From a virus, in IMG/VR virus record IMGVR_UViG_3300013005_005109, positions 1 to 23,318 of that record: a stretch of 23,318 bases of DNA; one strand, 5' to 3'. Positions within the stretch are counted from its first letter, which is position 1; each line of letters begins with the position of its first letter. The translations under genes and the position numbers were made by a program. Below, piece by piece: positions 2,226-22,857 of the stretch. The notes below the pieces were generated by a model. It saw only the letters and a list, made by a program, of their open reading frames with translations. It had not been told where the DNA came from and searched no databases.

Positions 2226-5200
2226 TATTGATCTCCAATTATTGGCTCAACGACACCCGAAAGCATGAGGCTGTCGGTAATATAGATCCATCCGGACTGC
2301 GCTGAGGCGTTAATGTATCCAGGTGGAACATACGACCAAGGACCAGAAAGCTTAACGCCAGTAGTTATGTCTGAGGAAACGGCCCTTACGCGATACTGAT
2401 ATCGGTAGTTAATGCCAAGGCCAGGGCCTTTAACCTGTGCCGTGTTGGTGTCGCCGTCATCAGTATAAGTCTGCGACCTTGTTGTAACAAGCGGTGCCCA
2501 AGCTTCAGCGGTTTTGGCCACGTTCTCGTACCAGGAGACAACTATAGACGGAATATCCTTTGTTTGCTTTGCTTTAAGTTCTGTAATGCCATGAGTTGCC
2601 GAAGCATATTGGTTAAATTTAATAGTCTTGCCAGAGTTTGTTACGCTGATTACTTCGTGTGATCCGGCCAATGAGGGGTTCTTAGGGCCTTTTGTTGTTT
2701 GCTTGCCAATTTGCCCACCTTTAATTTGAATATATGCACCAACGTCAATACCCGTTGAGCTAGCAAACGTCAATGAAACAACAGAAATTCCACCAGCCAC
2801 AGCGGGAGTTCGCGTCAGAACAGTGACACCAGCTTTCATGTTCGTTTTGCTAAAAGAGGTCTTTTTTAGCTCTTGCCTTCGCCGCTCAATCTCGTAGCCC
2901 GTAATGCTTTTGTTGCTTGGGTTTGTAGTGTCAATAGACCATGAAAGCTGAACATTTTGATCTATAGTTGTTATTTTTCCGTCGTTATCTACTGTTTGAA
3001 CAACCAGGTTACGAAGTTTAGTCGGGGCCATAAATTTAATTTTGCCGGTGCCAAGATTTTCTGTGAGATATTCTTTTTGCACAAGGATAATGGCGTTCTT
3101 TTGGAACGCTGGCTCCCCTGCAAGTTGCACGCTGTAGTAGATTTCCCCGCCAATAATGGTAACGGTCTGGCTCTTTACCACAAGAGGCTCAACGATTCCG
3201 ACCTCACTCCAAAGGTATGGAATAATCGACCCAACGGTAAGCCTGCCGGCTGAAGCGTTATTTGAGTGAGAGAATTCGTATGACTCGATGCTTTGGCCAT
3301 TCTCTGCCCAGAAAGAGCTGGCAGACAAGACGGCATCCTCCACGCTTTCTGGCGCGGTATCTGCCTTAGAGGCTTCAACAATTTTCCCGTGTGTGTCCCA
3401 AACCCCTTGAACATAGTCAAAGGTGTACCGGATAACTTGACCACTCTTAACGTACGGGGTGATAACGCTGTTAGATTGGTCAACTGTTGTGGCCTTGCCG
3501 TAGAGATAGAGCCTATTAGCTTGCGTTCCGCCCTGGCTAATGTTTTCTGGGGATTCATATGTTTTCATTGGCAAGATGGTATTAAGGTCAGGATCAAACA
3601 GCATCTCAACACTTGATCCAGGCGCAATACCATAGTCAGCAAATCCGTACTCTGCGGTAATCTTTACAACCTTTGGGTCTGCGTAGAAGTCGGTATAAGA
3701 GCTACTATGGCTTGTGTGATGAAAAATTAAAGCAGCTTTGACAATGCCAGCTGTGGTTGGAACCTTAACCATCCCCCACATCTTCTGCCAGGAGTTATTA
3801 AGGTTTACTCCAGCGCCAATAGTTTTATCTGACCCAACTTGCGCATCAGAAACATCGTAAAAACGAATTTTCAAACGGCTTTTTTCTGAGTTTGACGTCT
3901 TCATTAGAGCCGAGGCAAAGTACACCTCATTTGCTGCAACGGTAAAGTATTGCGACCTAGCAATTGATTCCGTTGACCCAGCGCACGTAGCGGCATAGCC
4001 GTAGCCGTATGGCCCAGATGAGCGGTTGCTTAGGACAAACGAGCCGCCAAAGTTCCATTCGTTTGAGCTAGCATTGCCAAACTTGTCTTCGTAGGTTGCA
4101 TTTTCCACAAGGTTCTTAACGTCTCTTCGCTGGTAGTGAAGGTTCTTGTTGGCGTCAATCCAGTATTGCGATCCAGTCTTCTTGCAGATATAGTCCATGG
4201 CCTGGCGAAGCGTCATTGCATTAAACGGCTCCTTAGCCCGATTAACCTCTATCTTTCCAGGATGGTCTGCAAGATATCGATAATCGTTGTCCTCGCTTAA
4301 AAGATCGGAAATCGTAAAGTAATGTGCCATCCACGACACTAGCTGATCACGCTCGGCGTTTCGCAAAACACGATCAAGCACGTAGATGTTGCCAATCAGC
4401 CCGTCAAAGAATGACGTTGCCACTCCGGCATTTGTGTAACCGTGACCAACAGTGAAGTTTCCAAAGGCAGTGACTGCTATGGTTGACACTGTTTGTGTCT
4501 GTGGGGTTTCATCATTCTTTTGAATTGTTAGCAGTCCTGACCCTGCAAAAGTTTCTGAACCGCTCTCTGCAGGATACATATGCAGTGCGGCTGGGTTGTA
4601 TGACACAAAGATGATTGCTGTTTCCCCAACGGTTAGCAACAGCGTAGTTGTAAATCGCTGAGTCGATCCTGCGTTATTGATGGTCATGAAGCAAATAGCC
4701 CCAGCGTCGTTAATTTGCAGCTCTCGGCGTTGGCCGGTTGTAATTGACCCGTGATGCCAGACGGTTCGATACTCGCCAGATGATGGAAGAGATTCTAGTT
4801 TAACGACGCAGATACAGCTCATCTTTCTGCCTGCTGCGTAGAATCCTGTCCCAACTGATGTTGCAGAGCCGGTTGCGGCAGCTTCGGTAATGTTTGAGCC
4901 GGCAAGAGAAAAGGTAAAGGTTCCCGCAGTTGCATCTGAAATTCCGTACGACCCATTAAGACTTGTATACGGGGCAGACGCGGCTACGGTAACGGTTTCT
5001 CCCTCAATAAACGCATGGGGCGCTTTTGTTCGAATCGTTACAACATTTGAAGCGCGAGAAACATAGGCAATTTCAGCGTATTTTGATGTTCCGATGCCCT
5101 GGAATTCTGACGATTCAAAGTCAACACTTTGCCTGCCCCCCATGTAGTCGATAGAGTCGTTTGGCATAGTAATGAAGCTTGTGCTTGGCGTTGCGGCGGT

Positions 5201-7600: not shown

Positions 7601-10600
7601 TTATGAGGGCCTTGCATATCCGGCTGAGCGTAGAGCACGCGTTTGCGCCTCTGCTACCTTCTTGGCTAGTTTATCAATATCTCCGGCGTTAGAGACGCTT
7701 GGGTTGTTGATTACTACAGATGCGTTGACGGTCTGGCCGCCGCCCACGGCGGTGACGCCCTCTGGCCCACGCATCTTGTGGTTTGGGATAATGCTGCCGC
7801 CAAGGCCGCCTGGAACCAGAAGCTCTGGGCCGCGCTCTCCGACCATATACCCTACGTTAGGCCGAACGGCACCACCAAAGGCACGCCCACCAATCTTCCG
7901 AAGTGGCTCACCAGAGAATGGAACATTTGATGGTCCGTCAAATGGGAACGGGGCATTTGGGCCAACGTTGTACACCGCTCCACCACCGGCCTGGATCATT
8001 TGGGTTCCCTGCTTTGCGGATTCTGGGTTGATGAAGCTAGTGTAAATCCAGTCGCCAAGCATTCCGCCAAGGATGCTGCCGATCATGCCGCCAATAAATG
8101 GGATTGGAATCAAATTGCCAAGGAGGCCGCCAACCAGCGAGCCGACGGTTCCGGCCACTGCTCGCCCCATATCGCCGCCGGTAGCCCCCGTCGTCAGAAG
8201 CCCTGCAATCATGGCTGCCGGTCCGCCAATCTTTGGAAGGATGCTAAGGAGGTTAAACCCTAGAGATGGAATGAGTTGACCGAAATTCTCAAAGTTACCA
8301 CTAATGGCCATCATGGCAACATCTGCAAGGAATCCTGAGAGGAAGTTACCCTTTTTGGTACCGACAAAACTATCTGCCCTTGCGGCCGTACCCTTAAACC
8401 CGCCCTGGTCTGTGGTGTAAGTCTTCATCCCCGGAAGGTTTAGCTTGCCGCCAGTAAATGGTACGGCAACTTTTCGATATTTAGAGCCGTATAGCTCCGG
8501 CATAAGCCCCGCCCTAACAGCCCCAGGGTCCCTAATGCTCCTAAAGTCAAAGGCTCGAGCCACTTCTCGCGGATATTGAGATCGGGCAGCAGCAACGGGC
8601 CTCACTGAGGCCGGAAGAGTTCCCTCTGCTATTTGAGCCTGCACACGTTCGTAATCAAGGTCAAGCAGTTGGCCGGCAGATTGAAGCTTGCCGAACGCCG
8701 CCTGTGTGAAAGGATCAGCAGTACCCCTGTTGGAAAGCGGGTCAGGAAGTGATTCCTGGGTATGCCCCGCGAAAATGTCAGCAAAATGTTCCATTGGGTC
8801 TGCGCCTGAATAAATTGTTGGTAGCGGGAAGTTTCGCGGCATTGTATATTCCGGGCCGGTGGGGTTCGTAGGGATTCTGCCAAGTGGTTTGCTGTTCGCA
8901 GCATTGGTGGCAATTTCCTTAGCCCGGATAGGGTCAAAGCCTTGGGCAATTAGGCTTTTCTCATAGGCTGCAGTCAAATCTTTCATTTGCATTCTTTCTT
9001 GGAGGTCAGCAATATGCCCTCTAAGATCGCCCTTCGTCTTAATTATTCCAATGGTTTCTTTTAAATTTGATGGCTTGAAGGCTTCTAGGTACATCTTCGG
9101 CACGGTGTAGCGATTATTAGTAATAAGGTGTCCAACCTCGTGAATCATTGCATCCGGCAGTTCGGTTAGTGGCGTGCGCGTATCAACTTGAATATTATTT
9201 GTGTCAAAACGAGCAACTCTTGCAGCAAAGCCCGAATCGGGCCCTCCGTCGACAAGGTCAACAGTTAGTCGCTTGCTCGGATCTGATGGGTCAAACATGC
9301 CTTGCGGCGCAGCGGCAAGGGCCAACCGAATGTTTTCAGAAATTATCTTAAGCTTTTCGGCACTAGTATTTCCTACAAGGGTGTGAGGGATGCGTATATC
9401 CCCCCAATCAAAACTTATAAGGTCCGCAGGCAACCCCTGTATAGGAAAACTATATTTATTACCGTATTTATCTGTTTCGCCAATAATACCCTCAAACCTA
9501 TGCTCGTCGATAACTTGAGAAAGAGATGTCCTATCCCTAAATGCTTGCACACCCGGTATAAGGCTTAGGATTGTGTCCAGCATGCCAGGCCTGAGGTCGC
9601 CCATAACTGTTCGTTGAGCCGGCTTGCCCCTCAGGCCCTCTCCCACCCTCAGGACCCGAGACATCATTCTTTCCTGCAGGTCAGCAGCAGGGTTATATGG
9701 GTCTACTACATCTGAAGATGGGAACTTGCTGAAAAGATCAAGCTGTTCGCCGCCGGACTTTGGAATTACCGGCGCGTCATCTAGTAGCATCTTGAGCGCT
9801 GGGGCGTCTACGGGCCCAAGTTCGGGGAAGAGTTCTGGCTGGGTATAGAGGAGGCGCTCTCGGATCAGTGCAACCTTATCCTCAAACGATCCGCCGCGAG
9901 GAATTGTCCTGGCAACACGAGTTCGCTCCGCCTCGATGTCAATGTTTTTAGCGCGCACTCCCTTAAAGTGCTCGTCGGCAGTGACGGCGTAGAGCGCAGC
10001 TTCGTCAATGTTAGTAAACACCCCTGCTCGAAGGAGAGATGCCGCCTGCGCCGCTCGGCCGGCAAGGATGCGGCCTGTCTCCTGCTGCCGGAGAATCGTT
10101 TCCTTTGCTGCAAGAATTTGCTCGGGGTCAACCGGCATACCGCCAGATGAGGCTCGCCAGTCGGCAATTTGCCTCTCAAGAACGTCAGTTGCGACTGCGT
10201 GATTTCCAAGGTCGGTAAAGCCCATTGCCGCAAGCGCAGCAGCCCGTGCTTTTGCTTCAGCGTCATTAAACGGCCGGTAACCGTTTTTGTCATCGATTAG
10301 AGTTGGCAGACCAAGGATTGTCTCGATTTGATCAATTGGAATGCCGCCAGGGATTTGGAACTCTGCAAGCCTGGTTGCGCCCTTGCCGCTCTGGGGAAGA
10401 GCAGAGGTAAAGCCTATCCTCTTGTTTTCCGGGAATGAGGCTGGGTCGGTTGCAAAGAATGGGAAATGATAGTCGCCGGATAGGAAGTCATTGAATGAGG
10501 TGGTCACATGAGGTGGCTTGTATCCCGGTCGGGTAACAACCGAAGTAATTGGGTCTGCTCCGCCCAAGCTCATGAGGTCAGAGGCATCTCCGCTGAGCAG

Positions 10601-13600
10601 GTTGCCCAAATGGCCGTAGTCGCCGGCAAGGCCGCCAACAATCGAGCTCACCACGCCCGTAGAAAGCGGTCGTGATCCCCTACCCCAAATGCCGCGCTTG
10701 ACAATATCAAGGCCAGGATCAAGCTCGTAGGTATCTCGCAAGCTCATTGGGCGCGAGATGTTAGAAAGCTGGGACAACCCCAGCATATTTCGTGCAAGGG
10801 TTTCAAGTGGTCCCGGAAGCTTTCCTGAGCCGACAAGCCTGGCCAACGCGTCAGCGAGATCCGGCCCAGGCATGATTGACTTCAATCCAGCCCCGTAAAG
10901 AGCGCTCAGGATATCAACAAAGCCGCCAACTCCAGCCAGATTGCTGTTGCTCATTCCCGGAGGAAGAATCTGATGAATAAATCGGGTAGCCGGGTTGGTG
11001 TAGTCCTCAAGCCAGCTCAGCTTGCCGTCGTAGCCACGGCCGACGTCTGTGGCATCAACTGGCCCGCCCTCAGCTCGGCCGCCACCGAAGCGAATCTTTG
11101 GCATTGCGGTTGGGCTTGGCAAATTCAGAAGCTCGCTTCCCGGCGTTAGACTTGGCTTCGGAGCTGGGTTGTTGAATCCGCGATTGTAATTAAACAAGTT
11201 TCCAAAGAAGCCTAGGTCTTTCTTTTGGCCCATATCAATAGACTGCTGTGTTTGCTTTCCATCCCAGACGTTGCCAAAGAGGAGGTCATAGACACTGCCA
11301 GAAATCGCGTCTAGGGCAGTGGCAACCGCCGCATTTGCAGCAAACATTCCTGCGGTTGCCATTCCGCCGCTGGCTACTACTCCTGCAACATTTGGAACGG
11401 CCATGGCAAGTGCGCCAACATTCATGGCAATATTGCGCACCCAGGCACGAGCTGGAGACTCTCCGCGCTCGCTAGCGCCCAAAATGTCAAAGAAGCTCAT
11501 GCCTGTACTGAGGATGGCGGTACCCCTAAACGCCTGGGCCATAACGTTTGCGGCGCTCTTACTTATAGCGTTGCCAGGCTTAAGTTTTATCTTTCCATCA
11601 GGGCCTTCAACCTTTATGCCCGGAACAAAGCCGCTCTTCGGCGACCATGTTTTAATATTTCCAGGACCCTCCCAATTGAATGGGGCAATCTTCCGAACGC
11701 CAATATCGTTCTTAAATCTGTCCCACCAGTTTGGGCGCTTGACTACGGCAAAGGCGTCATCTTCCTCAAACGGAGTCGTTGTGCCCCTGTTATAGCCAGT
11801 GAACTCGCCATTTGGTCCGCCGTAGATTCGACCAATGCCGCCAAGTGGAATGACCGAGTTGATCCACTTTGTATACATCCTAAAATTGAACGGGAACAGC
11901 CCCCATGGATCGTTGGTTGTTGTTGGCGTTGGGCCTGCTGTTGGTGTTGGGGTTGGAGATGGCGTTCCGGTAGGAGTTGGCCTTGGAGTTGGGGTTGGTG
12001 TTGGCTCCCATGACGGCTCTGGCGTTGGGCCCGGGGTTGGGTCCGGGACGAAATCCTGAGGCATGATGCCCTTGCCATACCCAACGTATCCGCCAACCGC
12101 TCGGCCGTATGCGCCGGCACGAAGAGCGCCAGCCGAAGACTTAAGTGTTGATGGGAGTTTATGGTTTGGCGTGACGTATCCGCCGCCCTGCTTGAACATG
12201 GTGAGCATCTCTGGTCCGCGCTCGCCAACCATATAGCTGGTGGCACTGGAGAGGGACCCGCCCATAGCCCTATTCCTGTCTGGGTTATACCCAGCAAGAC
12301 CAGACATAACCATCTGAAGAAGGGTCTGGAACTGCTCCATAAACCCAGTATTCAAATCATCGTATTGGCCGGTTGTGTACTTTCCTCCTGGGGTATAGAC
12401 ATTCTGCATGCGCTGAAGCTGCGCAAGGAATTGGCCAATTTGGTTAAAGCGCTTTACCCGCTCTGGATCGTTTCCGCCAATCTCTGGCTTAACCAGGGCA
12501 TAGTATTCACGGAGCTTTGTCTGAAGGTTCTTAGCATCAGAAATACGTGCCTTAAGCAAGTCCACCATGGTCTGACCCTTGATGGTTCTTGTCTCCGAGT
12601 CTGGGTTCATGATGGCGTTCAGCGCGTCTTGTGCCTTCTTGTACGCAGCAGATTGCGACAAAACGTTTAGGGCGGCAGTAATGGCCTTAGGAAGGGCGGC
12701 AAAGGTCGAGTTAATGTTTGCCTGCAACGCAGCCATGAAGCCAGAGGAGAACGATTCCATGAAGGAGTAGCCCTGGGCAGAAGCGACCTCTAGGTCAAGG
12801 CCAACGTCACCAAAGATGTCCTTAAGCTCGGTAGATGCCTTGGACTTGCTAATCTTGCCTTCTTGGATCTTCTTGAGCAGGTCGTCAATGCGCTCTTGCA
12901 TGACGCGGCTACGCTCTGCCTGATCGAGCTCAAGCGCCCGGGCCTTCTCGTCGTAGAATTGGGTAGTCCCAACGTATGCAGAGCTGGTCTTGCCGGACTG
13001 GATGGCGGCCCCCATTGAGTCAAGACGTGCGCGCTGCTCATCTTGGAACATCTCACGTGCGGCGTCTCGCGCGGCGCGGGCGCGTTCCAGTGGATCAACG
13101 CTAGCATCAAACATGTCAAGGGCGGCCTCTGATGCCCTTGTCCTTGACTCTTCAAGCTGCTGCAGCTTTTCCATCTGCTTTGCCTGGGCTTGCAACGCTT
13201 CGTACTGCTGCTCCAGGACGCCAAGACGGATCATTTCTCCGTCATACAGAACCTCAACGTTTGCAAGTGCTGCAACCTTCTCCTGCTCCAGGGCTTCCTT
13301 TTCGGCCTCAAACAGTGCCTGGATGGCAACCTGTGCTCGGGACATGAGGCGATTAAGCGGGGTCTGGAAGGCTTCCATTGCCTTCTGCATTGCCTCTTGC
13401 GCCTGCTGCAGGAGCTCTCCGGTGGCGTCTAGGGCCTTGGTAAGCAGGCTGATGTACTTTGTTGCCTCGGCATCGCCAGCGCCATACCACTTTGCATAGA
13501 GTTCTTCAACGTATTTCTGATCAAGGTTAAGCGTCTTTGCCACTTCGTCAGGCGAGAACCCCTCTCGAAGCATTTGCTTGATCTTGTCCTGCTGCACTTG

Positions 13601-16600
13601 TTCCAGCTGGCCGATAATGCCAGTTGTGCTCATGGACCACGAAGGATTGTCCCGGAGCCATTGCTGGGCTCGTGATGGATCGCTGTCCGCAACCATTTCT
13701 CTGTTAATTTGCGTGTCGTATCTAGCAGCAGCGCCTTGAGGATCAATGCTTGCGCCCATAAGAGCAAATGTGCGCCTGAGGTACGTTTCAAGGTCATCAA
13801 GGAATCCGCGCTCTTCGGCATAGAGCTCCGGGAACATCTCCTTTGCTTTGTCTTTTCCAACCTGGCCCTCAAGGCGGGTCCTTGTGTCGGTAACAACTTT
13901 TGCCTTTGTGTTAATTGGGTTATTGTTAAATGCCGCTTGCGCTGCTTTTGAAAGCTCCCCAGTAAGGAAAGCCAACGCCATGACCGCACCAGCAATACCA
14001 AAGGTAAGCGCTGCGGTCTGTGCGCTTGTAGCTGCAGTAAGGGCGATGAAAGCGCCGTGCAAGGCCTCTGTTGCCATTCCAACCATCATCATATTGTTAA
14101 AGACAGTAGAAATGCTCTCGTCAAGACCGAGAAGGTTAGAGGCAATGCTGCCGAACATGCCAAACCCGGTCAGTACTCCGCCCAGCATGCCAAGGCGAGA
14201 CCTAACGGCATCAATAATAACGCCGAGCTTAGCGAGCTTCCCGTTTGCTGCGGAAAGTTTGTCTCCAAAACCCTTAACTCTGTTGGTAACGCTTTCTAGC
14301 CCTGCGGCAAGTGCTTGCTCAATTTGGGCTCGCTCGCTGGCACCTACGGTGTCTAGGAAGTCATTGTATCCCTTTGGGTCGTCTATGCTGTATTTCTTTA
14401 GTTCCGCCAATCGTTGAGTTGCGTAATCTACGTCAACGCCAGTATTGAGAACTGAATCTACCCCGCCGGCTGGCGCAATAAATTCTCGACCACCCTTAGA
14501 GGCCCCTAGGGCTTCTATAAATGCAATGGCGCGTACAAGCGCCGGCGATGTGATGGTTTTGCCCGGCGTATTGTCAACGCCGAATCCGGATGCGACTAGG
14601 TTCCCGTCTTGGTCTTGCCTTTGGATAGGAACAAGACGCTGCATGCCATAGCTTTCTACGGCACCAAGGGCCTTGAATGCAAACATGCTGATTTTGAGTT
14701 TTGCCATTTGCTCTGCGGACCTGGCAGCAGCGTTAGCAAACTTTGTCATTGCAAGGGCAAGGCCATCAACCAGAAGTTTTCCGCCGACGAATCCAGCAAA
14801 GAGCACACCAAAGAGCGGAGCAAGAGGCTCAATAACCTTCATTATCCCAGCAAAGGCGGCCAAGATTCCGTCAATGACTGGCATTGCGGTAGAAAGTGCC
14901 GAGGCAATTGTAGCGGCAAGCGTCCCGATTGATGCGGCTGCGGCTGATGAGACTCCTGGGATTACCGAATTGGCGATTGAATCCGCTGAGCTAAGGATGC
15001 CCGGGGCAGCTCGGTCAAAAGCAGAGCGAACGCCATACTGGTTATTTTCATAGGCGTTAGCAAGGAACCCAACAAGGGCCGTGCTGGCTCCAAGAGTTGC
15101 TACAAGCGGGTTGCTACTGATAAATCCAAACAGGGCCCTGGCAACAATAATTGATGCGCCAAGCTTGCGGATAACATCATTAGAGAGGATCTCGGCCATT
15201 GCCTTAAATCCAGAAACCGAGGAGGTAATAAATGCGTTTAGAGGACCCCCGCTGGCCGTTACTGCGCCGCCGATGCCCCCAAGTGTCTTAAGCACGGCAT
15301 CCATAAAGCCGCCGGCGACACTAAGTCCCTCTGGGAGGCCAGATCGGATTGCCTCCGCAACAGTTTTAACTGAACGTGCGAATAGCTGAGATGCCTTTAT
15401 TGCCTCTTCGCCCTGGAGGAATGTTGCAAGGCCGTCGTTAAACTCTTGAGCCTTTGTTCCAGCAAGAAGGTCTCGCATAACCGAGAACAGTGGATTAAAC
15501 GCTGTTGCAACAAGCGACTGAGACGTATCCGCAACAGTCGTCATTGCTCCTTGGAAGGTGCGTGAGAACGCCTTCATACCGCCGCCGTATTTTGCCTCCA
15601 GCCCCTGCAGGATCGCCTGAACTCCGCCAGGCCCAGAGAGGGCGCCGATGCGAGCAAGGCGGCGGATTTCTTCGATGGCGGACTGTGGGTTTAGCAGCTT
15701 CTTGTATGTTGCGCTAGCGGTTTGCCCAGTTCGCTCAAGCTCCGCAAGCAAAGCGTTGGCAAGAATTTCATATCCGGCGATACCAGCGTTTGCCAGCTGC
15801 ATCATGTCGTTTTGATAGACGCGTCCAGCAGAGTTCATTTGTCCGAGTGCGTACGTTACTCGGCGGAGCTTATCGTCTTCGGCACCGAGTGCCGCAACGG
15901 CGTCTCCAATGTTTACAAGCGCCCCACGGAATTCCTTCAGGCCGGTTGTTGAGTACGGGTTGGTAAACGACTCGAGAATCGGCATTTGACCTTGGGCTTT
16001 TGCTTTAACGGAGTCAACCTCGAAGCCGAATGCTTGCATGCGGACGGCTGCAACCTCAAGGTCACCGAACCTGAAGTTTGTGACGTTGGCAAAGTCTTTA
16101 AGGGTTTGAATTGTTGATTCTGTTTCCCGCTGTGCTTCCCTTACGCTGCGTCCTGCATTCTTGAAGAGTGTATTAAATCCAACTCCGGCGGACTCAAGCA
16201 TGGCGTTAAAGCCAATGATGCCGCCCATGAGGTGTTGGATTCCGCCGGCAAAGGCAAAGATTGCCTGCTGGCCAATGGCAAACGAAAGACCAAGCGAAAG
16301 AACGCCGGTTACGGATTGTGTCAATCCGGTATTTGCCTGGGTCAAAACATTTGCTAGCTGACCAAATTGAACGCGACCATCTTGGATGACAAGATTAAGT
16401 CGGCTGTTGGCGGCTCTGGCTGCCTCTGCCGCCTTGGCATTATTTTGGAACTCTGTAACTGCTTGCTGCTTGTTTACTACAGAGGCTTCTGCCTGGGCGC
16501 CGTACTGGACTTGTGCCTCTCGGTATTGCCCAACTGGGCTAAAGCGCTCAAATATACTGCGTCCGTAGGATGATGCAGTCCGCATTCGGGCCGCACGAGC

Positions 16601-19600
16601 CTCGGCTTCTTGGCGAGCCCTCTCAACAAAATCAATAGGTTGGCCGCTGAGCGGCACAAGTGAACCGCCAGGTGGAATGTTGTAGACAGGCTCACCGCCT
16701 GGCAGGCGGAACTGAGGGCCAGATTCATTTGGGTAGGCACCGGCAGGCAAGAAACCGCCACGGCGGGTTATTGGCAGTGGCATGCCAACGAGACTGCCCT
16801 TCTGTACTAGCGCGCCACTTTGGGCAATCTCGGCATTGATCTGTGAAACGGTAGACTGGAGGATGGTCTTTGTAAGCTCATTGAGCTGCTGCTGAACCCC
16901 CGGATCATCTGCGGCCACTCCGGGCTTTTGCCCCTTAATAATCTTTTCAAATGCTTCTGGGTTGATGGCCATGGCAACAGCCTGCTTCTCGGCCTCTGAT
17001 GCGTTGGCCATGAACGCGGCCATCATCTCTGGTGTTCGGTTGGAGATACCGGTTATGCCACGAAGCTCGCTTCCTGGCTTGAGCAGCGAGCCGGTAGCCT
17101 GGATAAACGCACGCTGCAGGGCCTGTTCAAACGGCATGTTAAGGCCCTGGAATTGCTTGGCAGCCCCAGACCGAATGCCGCCCTCTCCGTATGATCGGAT
17201 GGTTTCAGAAAGGATAGAAGCAATCTCAAGGAACGAGGTCTTTGGGAACATCTTGGAAGACTTGCCAAGCTCTCCAATTCCTGCCGAAACTTGGGCAAGC
17301 AGCTCTTGGATTGGAGCCCCGCCACCCTGCACCTTTGCTGCGGTTTCATGAATCTTGGTAGCAAACTCAGTAAAGAGGGTTGAGGCGGAGACAAGCGAGG
17401 GCTTAGTTTTAAATGCTAGCTCCTGAAGATGTGGTGTGAGTTGCGCTGCGGCAATGCCAACGCCAAGCCCGGGGGTATTGAAGCCTTGCGGCCGCGATTG
17501 AGCATATTGGTGAAAGGCAAGATTGGCGAGGAGGCCACCAGTCTTTTTAGAGATCTCTGCCTGGAGTTGGTAGAACATTGGGTCAGCATGGCTAATTCCT
17601 CTGCCGCCTTCAGCGGAAAGAATTCCTTGCAGGCTCTTTTCTCCAAGCTTTTCTCCCTTTGGCCCGTAATGCATCGCTGTGGCTGGCGGCGTATAGCCAC
17701 CCTCCTTCATCCGCTCAAATGCACCGTGCGCAATTTCATGGATTGCAGTACGAAGAATGGCTCCTGAGCCTCGGTTTAGGTTTCCAATCTCCAGGAACCC
17801 GGCAGCTGCACCGGTAGTTGTCTGCCCCTGCAAGCCTTCACTCTCGCCAGGGAGTCCACGGAACGACGCCTTAAAGTGTTGCAAAATCTGAGATGCAAAG
17901 TTCCTTTCTAGGAAAGGCTTAAATGCCTCAGTAATGCCCGGAAGCACGCCCTCAACGGCCTCGGTCATAAACTTTGTATTGGCGGTGCGCGGACCGACAG
18001 AGGCGCTCTTACCAAACATGAGTCGCTCAAAGCGCTGCATTCCTGGGGTCCTGGCAACAGCCTCAGCGGCAGCCTGGGTAGCTGCTTGTGTTGCGGCTTG
18101 GGTAGCGGCCTGGGTAGCTGCTTGTGTGGCTGCCTGTGTTGTGGCAGGAATCAGGCTGGCCGTTGACTGGCCAGATGAGGCGGATGCAATGAGCGCTTGA
18201 TGCGACGCAAGTGGCGGGACCAACAGGCCACGAGTCTCCATGAGGGCACGTGCCTTATTCAGCTCGGCAATCATTCCCTCAACGTGAGCCGAGCCAAAAG
18301 CATGACCGCCCTGCATGCCAACCTTAGCCAACTCATTGGCAAGATTTTTATACCCCTGAGTAAGGTTTTTGTTTAGTTGTTCCTGACGAGCCGGGTCAGA
18401 CTCTTCGTACGGCAGGTATCCACCGGCACGAGCCTTTGCAGAGCCCTTAGCAGTTCCGGTTGCGCGCGGATTAAGGCGATATGAGCGTGCGCTTTCTGGG
18501 CGACGCATCGAAACTGGTTCCTCTGGTTCCTGTGGCTCTGGGGCCGCCGTAGGTGCCTTTGGGGGCTTAGGAGGCTTCTCTCCGCCGCCGCCGCCGCTAG
18601 AAGCTGGGGGCGCTGAGCCAAGATATCCAGGGTCTCGGGCTGCAGAAGCCTGGATTGCGCCCTCAACGGCCTCTTGGATAAGGCGCTCGACGCCCCTAGC
18701 GCCCTTACCCTGCCCAGACTTGAGTCCGGCAAGCATGGTGGCAGCTGCCTCTTGTGCAATCTGCAGTGCAACACGTGGGTCTGCTGTGATTGCGCTTGGG
18801 TCAAGCCCCATGCCGCCTTGGGTTGCAGACATTGCGCGTCCGCCATAGGTAGAAAGGCCGGCAAAGAATGCAGGAAGGCCCCGGCCAGCTGCAAGAATGC
18901 TTGAGGCAAGCTCAACGCCTTGGGCGGACGGCTCTCCAAAGGCAGTTGTTTGCGCGGTAATAAGTTTTCTGGCTTCTGCAAGCTTGCCAGCAACCCTTCC
19001 CATTCTGCTTGCCCCGCCGGCAACCGCCTGGGCAGCATTGATCAGCTCAATTGCTTCTGGGAGCGCATTGTAAATCGGGTCCATTCCGGCTGGAATCTCT
19101 CCAGCGCCAATTCTGCCTCGAAGTTGCAGCTGTGGCCCAACCGCCTTGTGAAGTTCTCTTAGTAGCGGCGCTGGAATGCCGCCGCGCTCGCCTTCCAGAA
19201 TCCTGCCGACCATGCTCTCAGTTGCAGCGTTGTTACCAAATGCCGTAGAGAGCAGCACGCCCTCCATAAGCCTTTGCAGCTTTGGACTAGTTCCTCCCTT
19301 GGCTGTCTGGTACTCAGAACGCACTCGCTCTACGGGAATTTCAGCAAGAACAAGCTGCTTTAGCTCTTCGACGGCAGATCCGCCCTTGCGGATTGTTGGG
19401 CCAACATTTCCGCGCTCAAAGCCGCCAGGAATCCGTGCAATAGTTTTAGAAATCGCTTGCGCAATTTCCGCTTCGGTCATGCCGGTAGAGAAGTTAAGCA
19501 TGGAGCCAAGGCGTGAGCCTTCTCGTGTGCCAATTTTTTCAAGGCTTGCCGTAAGCTCTCGCGTCACCACCGGCGTCCTTCCGGCTTGCACTATTGCTAT

Positions 19601-20698
19601 AGCCTCGTTAATCGCCCTTGTTACGCCCGATGGCCCGCCAAATGCTGCTGGATTTTTTGTAATAAACTCTCGTACTGCTGTAATAATTTGCTCTTTCCCT
19701 GGCTTGGTGGAGGCAAGTTGCTGCATGCCAAGCGTTCGGGCATTTCCGGAAAGAACCAATGCGGCTTTAGATACCTCAGAGCGAACTGTCGCAACAATTC
19801 CCTCTGCAAGGTTAGGGCTACCGTAGAAAATCTTCTGTGGGTCAAATCGGCCGGAGATTTCCTCAATGAGCTGGCGAGAGGCAACGCTTTCAGCTCGGCC
19901 AGCGCCACCACGAGCACGTGGTTGAAGATACTGCGGGTATGCGGGCTGCCTTGAGGTAACAAGCTCCTCAAGCGCCTGGACAACATACCTTGCCTCTATT
20001 TTTCCGCCAGAACTGCGCGGGTCGGCAAAGCTTTCGGCCGGGGCTGGCTTTGGTGTTGCGGCACGCTTAGGTGCCCGGGCAGGCCTATCGCTCTCCACGT
20101 CATCAATTAGGCCAGACCGTCGCAGCTGCGAGCGTATGTTTTCAACGTTTCTGCGGTCACCTCCGGTAGATGGGAAGAAGACCATGCGCTTGGACTTGTC
20201 TGGCGGGTAGGCAACAAAGTGTCCGCCATTGGTCTTTTCAATGCGGAACCCTTGGCGTTCGGCCTTTGCCATCAGGGCTCGTAGGCTTGCCTCTTGGCCA
20301 CGGCGAATCCTGGCGTCTTGAACTATGCCTGAGGAGGATGGGGAGGAGGAGACCCGCCCGGCCTGGCGCTGGACACGCTCCGAAGCTGCGGCTAGTCGGG
20401 ACATTTCCTCCATAGAACGACGAACGGCCCCGCCGACACGGATCGCATTGCGTTCCATGTCGCGCAGAGCCGGTATCGCCGTGCGAGTAATGTCTTTTGC
20501 AAATCCGGCAACGGGGGACTTCGATCCGCTGCCGAGTAGGCCGCCAGACGCAAGGGAGATTTGCTTGTTCGCAGACTGCAAGGCCTTAAGGCCGCTGAGA
20601 AGCCTGTCAATGTCGCGGAGCGTACGGGCTACACCGTCCTGGAATGCGGCAGAGTCAAGCGATATGCCAACCCGTGCTACATTATCAATCTCGGCCAC
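7601..20698 (-). CDS. Giant multidomain tape measure protein (4,365 aa)
   Basis: Tape measure protein, the helical ruler inside the tail tube that is released when DNA is ejected. It begins at GTG (20698), eight bases after a GGGGGG stretch and just after the chaperone stop, with a typical start (VARVGISLDSAAFQDGV). In order: HicA-like fold (about 137-199); helical region; Gly/Pro linker (about 695-727); AATQ repeats (856-875); zincin-like domain with HEIAH (987-991); tape measure core (about 1465-1740); several long hydrophobic stretches (about 1800-2300); coiled coil (about 2417-2573); VGERGPE motif (2824-2830); Pro/Thr linker (about 2885-2929); a second half of about 1,400 residues with a hydrophobic stretch and a second zincin motif HEVGH (3853-3857) plus E3970; Gly-rich hydrophobic region; a second VGERGPE (4286-4292). 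No lysozyme, NlpC/P60 or M23 domain was recognised. It is far longer than most tape measures (about 700-2,000 aa). The stop TAA is 3 nt before the hub gene start. Confidence 0.93.
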   Translation of the reverse strand: MAEIDNVARVGISLDSAAFQDGVARTLRDIDRLLSGLKALQSANKQISLASGGLLGSGSKSPVAGFAKDITRTAIPALRDMERNAIRVGGAVRRSMEEMSRLAAASERVQRQAGRVSSSPSSSGIVQDARIRRGQEASLRALMAKAERQGFRIEKTNGGHFVAYPPDKSKRMVFFPSTGGDRRNVENIRSQLRRSGLIDDVESDRPARAPKRAATPKPAPAESFADPRSSGGKIEARYVVQALEELVTSRQPAYPQYLQPRARGGAGRAESVASRQLIEEISGRFDPQKIFYGSPNLAEGIVATVRSEVSKAALVLSGNARTLGMQQLASTKPGKEQIITAVREFITKNPAAFGGPSGVTRAINEAIAIVQAGRTPVVTRELTASLEKIGTREGSRLGSMLNFSTGMTEAEIAQAISKTIARIPGGFERGNVGPTIRKGGSAVEELKQLVLAEIPVERVRSEYQTAKGGTSPKLQRLMEGVLLSTAFGNNAATESMVGRILEGERGGIPAPLLRELHKAVGPQLQLRGRIGAGEIPAGMDPIYNALPEAIELINAAQAVAGGASRMGRVAGKLAEARKLITAQTTAFGEPSAQGVELASSILAAGRGLPAFFAGLSTYGGRAMSATQGGMGLDPSAITADPRVALQIAQEAAATMLAGLKSGQGKGARGVERLIQEAVEGAIQASAARDPGYLGSAPPASSGGGGGEKPPKPPKAPTAAPEPQEPEEPVSMRRPESARSYRLNPRATGTAKGSAKARAGGYLPYEESDPARQEQLNKNLTQGYKNLANELAKVGMQGGHAFGSAHVEGMIAELNKARALMETRGLLVPPLASHQALIASASSGQSTASLIPATTQAATQAATQAATQAATQAATQAAAEAVARTPGMQRFERLMFGKSASVGPRTANTKFMTEAVEGVLPGITEAFKPFLERNFASQILQHFKASFRGLPGESEGLQGQTTTGAAAGFLEIGNLNRGSGAILRTAIHEIAHGAFERMKEGGYTPPATAMHYGPKGEKLGEKSLQGILSAEGGRGISHADPMFYQLQAEISKKTGGLLANLAFHQYAQSRPQGFNTPGLGVGIAAAQLTPHLQELAFKTKPSLVSASTLFTEFATKIHETAAKVQGGGAPIQELLAQVSAGIGELGKSSKMFPKTSFLEIASILSETIRSYGEGGIRSGAAKQFQGLNMPFEQALQRAFIQATGSLLKPGSELRGITGISNRTPEMMAAFMANASEAEKQAVAMAINPEAFEKIIKGQKPGVAADDPGVQQQLNELTKTILQSTVSQINAEIAQSGALVQKGSLVGMPLPITRRGGFLPAGAYPNESGPQFRLPGGEPVYNIPPGGSLVPLSGQPIDFVERARQEAEARAARMRTASSYGRSIFERFSPVGQYREAQVQYGAQAEASVVNKQQAVTEFQNNAKAAEAARAANSRLNLVIQDGRVQFGQLANVLTQANTGLTQSVTGVLSLGLSFAIGQQAIFAFAGGIQHLMGGIIGFNAMLESAGVGFNTLFKNAGRSVREAQRETESTIQTLKDFANVTNFRFGDLEVAAVRMQAFGFEVDSVKAKAQGQMPILESFTNPYSTTGLKEFRGALVNIGDAVAALGAEDDKLRRVTYALGQMNSAGRVYQNDMMQLANAGIAGYEILANALLAELERTGQTASATYKKLLNPQSAIEEIRRLARIGALSGPGGVQAILQGLEAKYGGGMKAFSRTFQGAMTTVADTSQSLVATAFNPLFSVMRDLLAGTKAQEFNDGLATFLQGEEAIKASQLFARSVKTVAEAIRSGLPEGLSVAGGFMDAVLKTLGGIGGAVTASGGPLNAFITSSVSGFKAMAEILSNDVIRKLGASIIVARALFGFISSNPLVATLGASTALVGFLANAYENNQYGVRSAFDRAAPGILSSADSIANSVIPGVSSAAAASIGTLAATIASALSTAMPVIDGILAAFAGIMKVIEPLAPLFGVLFAGFVGGKLLVDGLALAMTKFANAAARSAEQMAKLKISMFAFKALGAVESYGMQRLVPIQRQDQDGNLVASGFGVDNTPGKTITSPALVRAIAFIEALGASKGGREFIAPAGGVDSVLNTGVDVDYATQRLAELKKYSIDDPKGYNDFLDTVGASERAQIEQALAAGLESVTNRVKGFGDKLSAANGKLAKLGVIIDAVRSRLGMLGGVLTGFGMFGSIASNLLGLDESISTVFNNMMMVGMATEALHGAFIALTAATSAQTAALTFGIAGAVMALAFLTGELSKAAQAAFNNNPINTKAKVVTDTRTRLEGQVGKDKAKEMFPELYAEERGFLDDLETYLRRTFALMGASIDPQGAAARYDTQINREMVADSDPSRAQQWLRDNPSWSMSTTGIIGQLEQVQQDKIKQMLREGFSPDEVAKTLNLDQKYVEELYAKWYGAGDAEATKYISLLTKALDATGELLQQAQEAMQKAMEAFQTPLNRLMSRAQVAIQALFEAEKEALEQEKVAALANVEVLYDGEMIRLGVLEQQYEALQAQAKQMEKLQQLEESRTRASEAALDMFDASVDPLERARAARDAAREMFQDEQRARLDSMGAAIQSGKTSSAYVGTTQFYDEKARALELDQAERSRVMQERIDDLLKKIQEGKISKSKASTELKDIFGDVGLDLEVASAQGYSFMESFSSGFMAALQANINSTFAALPKAITAALNVLSQSAAYKKAQDALNAIMNPDSETRTIKGQTMVDLLKARISDAKNLQTKLREYYALVKPEIGGNDPERVKRFNQIGQFLAQLQRMQNVYTPGGKYTTGQYDDLNTGFMEQFQTLLQMVMSGLAGYNPDRNRAMGGSLSSATSYMVGERGPEMLTMFKQGGGYVTPNHKLPSTLKSSAGALRAGAYGRAVGGYVGYGKGIMPQDFVPDPTPGPTPEPSWEPTPTPTPRPTPTGTPSPTPTPTAGPTPTTTNDPWGLFPFNFRMYTKWINSVIPLGGIGRIYGGPNGEFTGYNRGTTTPFEEDDAFAVVKRPNWWDRFKNDIGVRKIAPFNWEGPGNIKTWSPKSGFVPGIKVEGPDGKIKLKPGNAISKSAANVMAQAFRGTAILSTGMSFFDILGASERGESPARAWVRNIAMNVGALAMAVPNVAGVVASGGMATAGMFAANAAVATALDAISGSVYDLLFGNVWDGKQTQQSIDMGQKKDLGFFGNLFNYNRGFNNPAPKPSLTPGSELLNLPSPTAMPKIRFGGGRAEGGPVDATDVGRGYDGKLSWLEDYTNPATRFIHQILPPGMSNSNLAGVGGFVDILSALYGAGLKSIMPGPDLADALARLVGSGKLPGPLETLARNMLGLSQLSNISRPMSLRDTYELDPGLDIVKRGIWGRGSRPLSTGVVSSIVGGLAGDYGHLGNLLSGDASDLMSLGGADPITSVVTRPGYKPPHVTTSFNDFLSGDYHFPFFATDPASFPENKRIGFTSALPQSGKGATRLAEFQIPGGIPIDQIETILGLPTLIDDKNGYRPFNDAEAKARAAALAAMGFTDLGNHAVATDVLERQIADWRASSGGMPVDPEQILAAKETILRQQETGRILAGRAAQAASLLRAGVFTNIDEAALYAVTADEHFKGVRAKNIDIEAERTRVARTIPRGGSFEDKVALIRERLLYTQPELFPELGPVDAPALKMLLDDAPVIPKSGGEQLDLFSKFPSSDVVDPYNPAADLQERMMSRVLRVGEGLRGKPAQRTVMGDLRPGMLDTILSLIPGVQAFRDRTSLSQVIDEHRFEGIIGETDKYGNKYSFPIQGLPADLISFDWGDIRIPHTLVGNTSAEKLKIISENIRLALAAAPQGMFDPSDPSKRLTVDLVDGGPDSGFAARVARFDTNNIQVDTRTPLTELPDAMIHEVGHLITNNRYTVPKMYLEAFKPSNLKETIGIIKTKGDLRGHIADLQERMQMKDLTAAYEKSLIAQGFDPIRAKEIATNAANSKPLGRIPTNPTGPEYTMPRNFPLPTIYSGADPMEHFADIFAGHTQESLPDPLSNRGTADPFTQAAFGKLQSAGQLLDLDYERVQAQIAEGTLPASVRPVAAARSQYPREVARAFDFRSIRDPGAVRAGLMPELYGSKYRKVAVPFTGGKLNLPGMKTYTTDQGGFKGTAARADSFVGTKKGNFLSGFLADVAMMAISGNFENFGQLIPSLGFNLLSILPKIGGPAAMIAGLLTTGATGGDMGRAVAGTVGSLVGGLLGNLIPIPFIGGMIGSILGGMLGDWIYTSFINPESAKQGTQMIQAGGGAVYNVGPNAPFPFDGPSNVPFSGEPLRKIGGRAFGGAVRPNVGYMVGERGPELLVPGGLGGSIIPNHKMRGPEGVTAVGGGQTVNASVVINNPSVSNAGDIDKLAKKVAEAQTRALRSAGYARPS
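7760..7890 (-). other. C-terminal tape measure signature (VGERGPE), terminal copy
   Basis: Residues about 4270-4313 read FGGAVRPNVGYMVGERGPEL, then LVPGGLGGSIIPNHKM, with VGERGPE at 4286-4292 (7843-7823). A short segment typical of tape measure C-termini follows (VNASVVINNPSVSNAGDIDKLAKKVAEAQTRAL). It is preceded by a Gly-rich hydrophobic stretch (VGGLLGNLIPIPFIGGMIGS) that could enter a membrane during ejection. Confidence 0.85.
8770..9290 (-). other. Second zincin-type metallopeptidase domain in the tape measure protein
   Basis: A beta-rich lead-in (RLTVDLVDG..., ARVARFDTNNIQVDTRT) is followed by LPDAMIHEVGHLI with HEVGH at residues 3853-3857 (9142-9128). At 113 residues downstream lies GADPMEHFADIFAGH, with E3970 (8791-8789). 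The 'dp.E.FAd.FA' helix is the usual place of the third zinc ligand (glutamate) in gluzincin-type peptidases. Both halves of the signature are therefore present, which makes this copy better supported than the first. Substrate unknown. Confidence 0.72.
11912..12046 (-). repeat. Pro/Thr-rich low-complexity linker in the tape measure
   Basis: Residues about 2885-2929 are almost entirely P, T, G, S and E in a PTP repeat (for example EPTPTPTPRPTPTGTPSPTP). It is encoded by GTTGG/GGTGTT-rich DNA on the plus strand. It separates the classical tape measure part, which ends with the first VGERGPE motif, from the additional C-terminal half. An extended, flexible inter-domain linker is the likely role. 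Confidence 0.88.
12140..12265 (-). other. Internal copy of the tape measure C-terminal signature (VGERGPE)
   Basis: Residues about 2812-2853 read AMGGSLSSATSYMVGERGPE, then GGGYVTPNHKLPS, with VGERGPE at 2824-2830 (12229-12209). This 'GG......Y.VGErGPE....GG.v.PN' signature normally occurs once, near the end of tape measure proteins. Here 1,500 further residues follow it, and the same signature appears again at the true C-terminus. Confidence 0.85.
12980..13450 (-). other. Long coiled-coil segment of the tape measure
   Basis: Residues about 2417-2573 are rich in A, E, Q, K and R with few prolines or glycines and regular hydrophobic spacing (LLQQAQEAMQKAMEAF..., ALFEAEKEALEQEKVAAL, LEQQYEALQAQAKQMEKLQQ, ARAARDAAREMFQDEQRARL). 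This is the rod-like, helical part expected to span the tube lumen. Confidence 0.75.
15480..16300 (-). other. Canonical tape measure core domain
   Basis: Residues about 1465-1740 contain the recognisable conserved part of phage tape measures. A hydrophobic segment (IFAFAGGIQHLMGGIIGFNAM) is followed by LESAGVGFNTLF, TLKDFANVTNFRFGDLEVAAVRM, the region with GDAVAALG, LRRVTYALGQMNSAGRVYQNDM, and MQLANAGIAGYEILANAL. The run 'AlgQm...Grv...dm.qLanaGi.gyeiLa' is characteristic of the family (TIGR02675-like). It lies 1,400 residues into the protein, although this domain is normally near the N-terminus. Confidence 0.85.
17430..18040 (-). other. First zincin-type metallopeptidase-like domain in the tape measure protein
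   Basis: The motif ILRTAIHEIAHGAFERM contains HEIAH at residues 987-991 (17740-17726) within a hydrophobic helix, the classic HExxH zinc-binding signature. About 46 residues later, GISHADPMFYQLQAEI offers H1037 or D1039 as possible third ligands, resembling the 'HGp.F' helix of several zincins. The flanks (about residues 887-1090) are mixed helix and strand, unlike the helical tape measure around them. The third ligand and activity are uncertain. Confidence 0.62.
18074..18133 (-). repeat. Five 12-bp tandem repeats encoding (AATQ)5
   Basis: Five consecutive units of A-A-T-Q (residues 856-875) are encoded by imperfect 12-bp repeats. A degenerate unit ATTQ precedes them and AAAE follows. Codons vary between units (GCA/GCT/GCC, ACA/ACC, CAA/CAG). 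The repeat sits just before the first zincin-like domain and likely forms an alanine-rich helical or flexible linker. Confidence 0.9.
20105..20290 (-). other. HicA-like domain within the tape measure protein
   Basis: Residues about 137-199 read as helix, then QGFRIEKTNGGHFVAY, then a basic loop and a strand (PPDKSKRMVFFPST), then DRRNVENIRSQLRRSGL. This matches the HicA/YcfA alpha-beta-beta-beta-alpha double-stranded-RNA-binding-like fold: 'Gf....ggH..y', a 'p' strand and a final helix ending in 'l...gl'. The histidine of the GGH motif is H160, the position of the catalytic histidine in HicA mRNA interferases. The match is by pattern; similar stand-alone or fused domains occur in phage proteins of unknown role. 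Confidence 0.6.
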
Positions 20699-21316: not shown

Positions 21317-22171
21317 TTAAGCCGTGATTGTCACGATTTGCGCCGTGCTGGAATCATACTGAAGGTTGAACTCAAGGTCAACCTTGATGATGTCCTCTCG
21401 TGTAAACGGAATGTTGTGCTGATAGATACAAACCTTATGGCCGGTGATCTCCACCGACTTGGATGGATCATCTGAGCGGATGTGCGTGAACACTGCACGA
21501 ACCGGTCGGTTGCGGAGCATCGACAAGTCAAGTGGGTTGACAGCCGCTGTACCAAAGTTAAGGTTTTCGCGGAAGTTCAACGTGCCTGGGTAGATGCTTG
21601 TCGAGCCATTATGGGTCAGCGTAGTGCTGAAGAGGCGCGAGAAGCGCATTGGGTCAAGCTCAAGTCCGCTGACGCGGATGGTTGACTTGCCACCAAAGTG
21701 TGCCTTAGCAATAGGGAAGTTAAACTGACCAAAGAATTCACGCTCTTGGAAGGAGATGTCAAACTCAACGTCGCCACCAATTTCGCCAATGTCCTGCATG
21801 CCTTGGTACTGAGCAAGGGCTGCGCTAGCTGGGTCAACAATGGCCGTAATGCTGGCCGTTGTTGAGGCGGTGTTGGTGTGAAGCCATTCGTAGTTGTAAA
21901 CGGTTCCAACATACACGTCGTACGTTGTGGCGCCGGAAAGCGCGGTCCAGGAAACATCAAGCTTCCCGGTTGCGCTAAGGATTGCCGTCAGCGGGGCCGA
22001 CGGAGTTGCCGTACCGGCAGCGTTCCGCCCAGCGACACGTACATAGTACGTGCCGGCTGGGACGGAGCCGCTAGCAGTTGAGGGGGTTACGGCGACGCCC
22101 GCAACCTGAGTATAAAGACCACCGGAAATCCAAGTACCGATTTGGAGCCGGCCGCTACCAAGTGTAAACAT
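21317..22171 (-). CDS. Second tail tube protein with inserted Ig/Fn3-like domain (paralog 2)
   Basis: A 284-residue paralog of the preceding tube protein. The shared block GGDVEFDISFQEREFFGQ begins at residue 132 here and at residue 47 in paralog 1, so about 85 extra residues lie between the common N-terminus (MFTLGSG...W14) and the common core. The extra segment (about residues 25-112) has an Fn3/Ig-like pattern: PAGTYYVRVAGRNAAGT, then LDVSWTALSGATTYDVYVGT, then a final TASITAI strand. Ig-like domains on tube proteins commonly face outward and are thought to help weak binding to cell surfaces. A Shine-Dalgarno AGGGGG (22185-22180) sits 8 nt before the ATG. The protein could be a minor decorating tube subunit or a co-polymer with paralog 1; the sequence cannot decide. 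Confidence 0.76.
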   Translation of the reverse strand: MFTLGSGRLQIGTWISGGLYTQVAGVAVTPSTASGSVPAGTYYVRVAGRNAAGTATPSAPLTAILSATGKLDVSWTALSGATTYDVYVGTVYNYEWLHTNTASTTASITAIVDPASAALAQYQGMQDIGEIGGDVEFDISFQEREFFGQFNFPIAKAHFGGKSTIRVSGLELDPMRFSRLFSTTLTHNGSTSIYPGTLNFRENLNFGTAAVNPLDLSMLRNRPVRAVFTHIRSDDPSKSVEITGHKVCIYQHNIPFTREDIIKVDLEFNLQYDSSTAQIVTITA

Positions 22172-22194: not shown

Positions 22195-22857
22195 TTACGC
22201 CGAGATCAGTACAACTGCTGGGGTCTTAGCACCACCAACGGTCGTGACACAATCGCGGTCAACAACAGCCGAGAAGTCAATGTCCTGTCGGGCAATGTCT
22301 TCACGGGTGAACGGCATCATGAGCTGCATGCTGTATGCCTTCGGTAGGTGAATAATCACCGACTTTGAAGGGTCGTCCGAGCGAATGTGCTCAAACTTGA
22401 CGTACAGCGGTCGTGGCAGGCCCATGAGGGCAGTCACGTTTGCAATGCTGGCGTTCGGGCGGCCACCGTCTGGGTCAAAGTTGACCGTGTACGAGCCACC
22501 GGTAAAGTCGTCATGGGCGTTGCCATAAACGGTTGAGCTAAGGTCGGTGCCCTCACCGAGCGAAACGTGGAAGAGGTTCTTTACGTTGTCCCAGTTAATC
22601 TCAACGCCACGTGCGCGAATATCGGCCTTACCGCCGAAGAACGCCTTGGCAATTGGGAAGTTGGACTGACCATAGAACTCTCGCTCCTGGAAGTTAATGT
22701 CGAACTCGACGTCGCCGCCGACTTCGCCAACCGTTACGAGCTCGCCAGCGGCGTTGTAGCCACCGGTCGTACCAAAGTAGTTGGTGCTCGTCTGATTAAT
22801 GACCGCTCCGGACTTCCAGAACGCCACCTTGACTACACCAGATCCAAGTGTAAGCAT
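22195..22857 (-). CDS. Major tail tube protein (paralog 1)
   Basis: A 220-residue protein interpreted as a tail tube subunit that polymerises as rings around the tape measure. It follows the terminator and precedes the chaperone pair, the usual position of the tube gene. It shares several blocks with its downstream neighbour: the N-terminus M[LF]TLGSG, a block GGDVEFDINFQEREFYGQ at about residues 47-64, FPIAKA..GGK, HIRSDDPSKSV and PFTREDI near the C-terminus. A Shine-Dalgarno AAGGGAG (22872-22866) lies 8 nt before the ATG and overlaps the previous stop. This copy lacks the inserted Ig-like domain of the second copy. Either copy could be the main tube subunit. I favour this one because it is the compact form. 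Confidence 0.8.
   Translation of the reverse strand: MLTLGSGVVKVAFWKSGAVINQTSTNYFGTTGGYNAAGELVTVGEVGGDVEFDINFQEREFYGQSNFPIAKAFFGGKADIRARGVEINWDNVKNLFHVSLGEGTDLSSTVYGNAHDDFTGGSYTVNFDPDGGRPNASIANVTALMGLPRPLYVKFEHIRSDDPSKSVIIHLPKAYSMQLMMPFTREDIARQDIDFSAVVDRDCVTTVGGAKTPAVVLISA

Follow-up and report, generated by a model that had tools for sequence, protein, structure and literature searches.

The locus analysed here raises the question of whether a short HExxH motif in the N-terminal third of a giant phage tail protein marks a genuine zincin metallopeptidase and, if so, what such an enzyme might do there. The window, which is the whole stretch of DNA under study, is a 23,318-base virus record with a tail gene run on the minus strand. 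In its giant ORF (7601..20698, minus strand; GTG start, 4365 aa), residues 1586-2602 match tape measure profiles (Pfam TMP_3 and tape-measure PHROGs), and the TMP_3 match (E 1.3e-8) places the tape measure core at residues 1588-1731 (15506..15937, minus strand). A tail-protein PHROG match lies directly upstream of this gene and a large tail-tip-like ORF downstream; by profile and by its place between tail and tail-tip genes, the 4,365-aa ORF is a tape measure protein (TMP). The residues around the core (1440-1760) are the most constrained part of the protein, with dN/dS values of 0.03-0.08. The window also contains an adjacent pair of tail-tube-like genes (21317-22171 and 22195-22857, both minus strand) that are alike in sequence when compared by eye, one of which carries an extra domain insert.

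Conservation of the HEIAH motif in related tape measure proteins

The sequence-only reading had placed a zincin-like domain at 17430-18040, which corresponds to TMP residues 887-1090, and its numbers proved correct when the ORF was checked again. HEIAH occupies residues 987-991 (17726..17740, minus strand), with E988 as the putative general base, and SHADPMF begins at residue 1036, which puts H1037 (17588..17590, minus strand), the probable third zinc ligand, 46 residues after H991. Only one further HExxH, HEVGH at residues 3853-3857, is present in the whole protein; the two lie 2,866 residues apart, close to the 2,860 or so given earlier.

As HExxH is a short motif, its chance occurrence in a coiled coil has to be considered. 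Histidine makes up 0.7% of the window TMP; by composition, 0.0115 HExxH would be expected, and two are seen. The tape measure core served as the query to collect relatives, which gave 77 related viral loci, and across these the HExxH recurs at the same place down to about 34% protein identity. In the 35 distinct relatives with long N-termini that were kept after duplicate removal, 37 HExxH were counted against 0.36 expected, and in 17 of the 35 the motif stands 456-644 residues ahead of the core. The earlier view that chance poorly explains two such motifs is thus borne out; with the mixed alpha/beta models described below, the probability of a chance motif becomes negligible, and conservation across orthologues refutes it. 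Moreover, HExxH is absent from related TMPs in the size range of about 1,500-1,930 aa (L036-L051 among them), and TMPs without any zincin exist at 42-47% core identity, which indicates that the N-terminal zincin is an accessory module. The domain combines a conserved active site with modular presence and absence.

The residues H987, E988 and H991 are identical in all eight orthologues compared (overall identity 86% to 34%), and conservation of the HEIAH histidines, which had been proposed as a test in close relatives, was found in close and distant relatives alike. Of the 30 histidines in the window TMP, only four (H987, H991, H1489 and H2846) occur in every one of the eight orthologues, and H1037 and H1063 are each kept in six. 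An alignment of 11 sequences has T984, H987, E988, H991, D1039, P1040, F1042 and Q1046 as invariant positions. In addition, residues 888-1130 are under purifying selection between close relatives (dN/dS 0.11-0.19), and residues 901-1100 are about 93% identical between the window and L015.

The replacement of H1037 in two orthologues counts against the reading of an active zincin. L022 and L023 have Glu at or beside this column, next to the invariant DPxF, a placement that depends on where gaps are set, as one alignment has a gap there instead. Glu is an accepted zinc ligand in zincins. A third-ligand column that varies between His and Glu could also reflect a degenerate zincin, retained as a structural part without catalysis; this is very improbable, however, as E988, which is required for catalysis, is invariant together with both histidines of the motif. 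The N-terminal zincin very probably binds zinc and is active.

Predicted fold and family of the N-terminal domain

The AlphaFold2 model of the window segment, which was built with 11 sequences, has a pLDDT of 65.5 overall and of 74-90 across the catalytic part, and follows the order helix-strand-strand-HExxH helix-hairpin-helix. The HExxH lies inside a predicted helix (99-120 in model numbering), H1037 is found at the next helix region after the hairpin, and the strands upstream of the catalytic half are poorly predicted. This model gave no significant PDB match, with BepA (Z 3.5) as the one zincin listed, and the orthologue L041, which is 33% identical to the window and alignable along the whole domain, was therefore modelled. 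The upstream part of L041 is better predicted than that of the window, with a helix at 20-36, strands at 44-46, 57-59 and 64-66 and the HExxH helix at 75-96, followed by two strands and a helix starting at DP. When the L041 model was searched against the PDB with Foldseek, the best 14 rows were all zincins (leukotriene A4 hydrolase and further peptidases of the M1/M61 type), the best of them at E 0.065 with a probability of 0.87, and no match reached E 0.001. Over model residues of about 10-180, the best VIA matches of L041 were Wss1 (Z 7.3, and again Wss1 at Z 7.2 with an rmsd of 2.8 over 98), selecase (7.2), BepA (7.1), YbeY (6.8) and SPRTN (6.8, 19% identity), and other VIA rows cover C-terminal helices only. 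These Z values near 7 are modest, tied and within the range of chance arrangements; it is the repeated appearance of zincins among the core matches, taken with the conserved active site, that makes the zincin assignment strong.

Structure prediction, which the sequence-only reading had named as its first check, thus came out in favour of the domain in one part, as the models of both the window and L041 are mixed alpha/beta and exclude a plain coiled coil; the other part, a zincin fold match, was obtained from the orthologue and not from the window model alone. Taken together, orthologue alignment, AlphaFold2 models and the fold matches of L041 delimit a domain at residues of about 905-1110 (17369..17986, minus strand), which is well supported as a genuine zincin metallopeptidase domain. 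It would comprise an N-terminal helix, three strands, the HExxH helix, a hairpin and a helix led by the distal ligand His.

As to the family, the profile search suggested earlier recognised no metallopeptidase family in the N-terminal segment with Pfam and PHROGs, and PDB sequences gave no match either. The SprT-like profile PF10263 had no match in the window and WLM none for the N-terminal domain; among 34 mixed HExxH segments, WLM matched one weakly, at E 0.084. In isolate phages the tape measure core alone was matched, at 26-27% identity, while the zincin segment had no match, and scans of bacterial and archaeal genomes likewise returned no relative of this segment. In SprT/Wss1 metallopeptidases, a GH..F-like turn with a distal His comes after HExxH, as in the N-terminal zincin. 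The GHxDPxF turn and the modelled fold matches to Wss1 and SPRTN could point to a SprT/Wss1-like placement, but Wss1 and SPRTN score level with selecase and BepA. The possible likeness to this group (SPRTN, WLM) lies in the core topology and in the fold matches of L041, whereas the window domain differs in having no SprT-like or WLM profile match and in sitting in a phage tail protein.

TMPs some 5,000 aa long (L028-L035) have HEITH/HEIEH domains in the position of HEIAH, and these share with the N-terminal zincin a T..xHE..H pattern, a distal His and a hairpin with PKG; homology between the two is unproven, with an hhalign probability of 8-11%. In the distant TMPs L069, L072, L073, L077, L078 and L079, HExxH is found 1,000-1,500 residues ahead of the core. 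The ExxA-type third-ligand pattern of these motifs is perhaps that of a further zincin kind.

Modules around the tape measure core

As a module, the N-terminal zincin belongs with the HicA-like and DdrB-ParB domains to an accessory N-terminal block, which flexible linkers would tie to an ordinary tape measure core, with a second zincin behind it. The DdrB-like ParB domain at residues 231-332 (19703..20008, minus strand) was matched by Pfam PF18763 with a sub-region E of 1.3e-6 and 29 bits, against a cut-off of 27.6 bits, and also occurs in 5 of 19 relatives (best E 3e-10). The small HicA-like domain at residues 130-197 (20108..20311, minus strand) matches phrog_2089 at E 1.5e-9, with a hint of the HicA Pfam family at E 0.21; it contains a GGHF motif, the His of which is present in some relatives and absent in others. 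Directly ahead of the zincin lies an ATQAATQAATQ linker (residues 852-875; 18075..18145, minus strand), a tandem repeat with a 24-bp unit according to Tandem Repeats Finder. One protein holds DdrB-ParB, the N-terminal zincin, a second HExxH domain and the TMP core; such a gathering of domains with different activities is a trait of polyvalent proteins.

Other giant TMPs (L031-L034) measure 5.3-5.5 thousand aa where complete, and L031, L032, L033 and L034 (ORF from 1106) have three HExxH each at conserved places. A PI3/PI4-kinase-like match (E 3e-8 to 4e-5) was seen in the N-terminal part of the TMP at L034:2906-3806 and L031:2735-3635; these two relatives are about 5,450 aa long, with three HExxH each.

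The second, C-terminal zincin-like domain (residues 3740-3990; 8729..9481, minus strand) was recognised from HEVGH at 3853-3857 and EHFAD from residue 3970, about 115 residues on, in an alignment with L015-L022. The E3970 region reads EHFAE, ESWAE or ETYAE in relatives, which makes Glu the probable third ligand. Residues 3701-4000 are 37-52% identical between the window and L015. The two domains had been taken for different subtypes, and they do differ, the N-terminal one having GHxDPxF with a distal His and the C-terminal one the EHFAD/E-type Glu pattern. An origin of the N-terminal zincin as a duplicate of the C-terminal one was rejected on this difference.

The C-terminal zincin module is bracketed by two copies of a TMP end motif, namely GERGPEM...PNHKLP at 12143..12226 and GERGPEL...PNHKM at 7772..7840 (both minus strand). 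This motif, GE.GPEL..P, is single in short TMPs and in L019, L041 and L023, which are without a C-terminal HExxH, and double, flanking the C-terminal module, in all examined TMPs that have one; L029 and L035 carry two copies, yet no C-terminal HExxH. The duplicated motif around the C-terminal zincin suggests the insertion of a cassette behind the ancestral end of the TMP.

Possible roles of the zincin and of giant tape measure proteins

In phage T5, the TMP is ejected and its C-terminus lies at the tail tip, and the TMPs of T5 and lambda are cleaved in morphogenesis (PMC10038345). By analogy with T5 (PMC10038345), the window TMP would fill the tail tube, be cleaved in morphogenesis and exit C-terminus first; packed in the tube and expelled ahead of the genome, it might carry the zincin domain to or into the host.

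Enzymes within TMPs have been described in connection with the cell wall. T5 pb2 is a TMP with a metallopeptidase motif and is cleaved in morphogenesis (PMC10038345), and TMPs with M23 or lysozyme domains are known, for example from Basilisk-like phages, with M23 in Bacillus phage TMPs, the enzyme being built into the TMP as here (PMC6145125). On these precedents, the N-terminal zincin could be a peptidoglycan hydrolase that eases passage of the tail through the wall, like pb2. We consider this improbable, as the domain precedes the core and by the T5 analogy would leave the tube late, and as the C-terminal zincin is the better fit for a cell-wall role. The pb2 motif is C-terminal and muralytic, whereas the window has its domain ahead of the core and, at the C-terminus, another zincin of a different type; M23 domains, which are regarded as cell-wall enzymes, are not zincins and are without HExxH.

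A closer likeness is offered by polyvalent proteins such as phage P1 DdrB and the N4 virion RNA polymerase (Iyer et al. 2017, PMC5512222), which are very large and, as here, combine zincin, DdrB-ParB and other modules. Those with zincin and DdrB-ParB are injected or packaged, and their zincins were proposed to self-process (PMC5512222). The window protein differs in its chassis, a tape measure protein, which is a term absent from the main text of PMC5512222, and in the distal ligand, which is Glu in the zincins described there and His in the N-terminal zincin; the MPTase-PolyVal profile PF18818 had no match at E 1 in the window and four relatives.

By the example of these polyvalent proteins (PMC5512222), a zincin beside DdrB-ParB may self-process or act in the host. 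Its likeliest job might be self-processing, in which the TMP would be cut to free the N-terminal cargo or to mature the tail. This is preferred since relatives exchange the C-terminal zincin but keep the N-terminal domain stable, and such stability might be expected of a domain that acts in cis; self-processing is thereby put slightly, and weakly, ahead of cleavage of host proteins. The same domain could instead be an injected effector protease, delivered by the TMP, with host proteins as its substrates, such as defence proteins or proteins bound to DNA. Wss1 and SPRTN are among the best core fold matches, and SPRTN/Wss1-type proteases act on protein-DNA adducts; the company of DdrB-ParB is typical of injected polyvalent proteins (PMC5512222), and a zincin cutting host targets would look identical to a self-processing one. 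However, a stable N-terminal domain and a variable C-terminal zincin are the opposite of what is expected of a host-facing function. Cleavage of host proteins comes close to self-processing in likelihood, and we hold the injected effector to be a real possibility that falls short of an even chance. The reading as a whole, an active zincin module in a polyvalent TMP that is self-processing or host-acting, we consider evenly balanced.

Enzymes inside TMPs are already known, as is the pairing of zincin and DdrB-ParB in one injected protein. No paper joining the two was found in a search to which most subscription papers were out of reach. The present locus may belong to a class of giant polyvalent TMPs in uncultured phages, for which we see about an even chance. 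In this class, the core would be flanked by exchangeable enzyme cassettes (two or three unlike zincins, DdrB-ParB, HicA-like, PI3/4-kinase-like), with C-terminal cassettes between duplicated end motifs, and the ruler would double as a carrier of injected effectors. TMPs, which are ejected with the genome, are usually viewed as rulers and pores; the modules found here suggest that this giant tail protein may in addition bring enzymes into the bacterial cell. Close relatives that have or lack the cassettes allow a direct test of this question. If giant TMPs do carry enzyme cassettes, the tail lumen would be a protein delivery route, and oversized TMPs would be worth searching for processing or anti-defence enzymes missed by family libraries.
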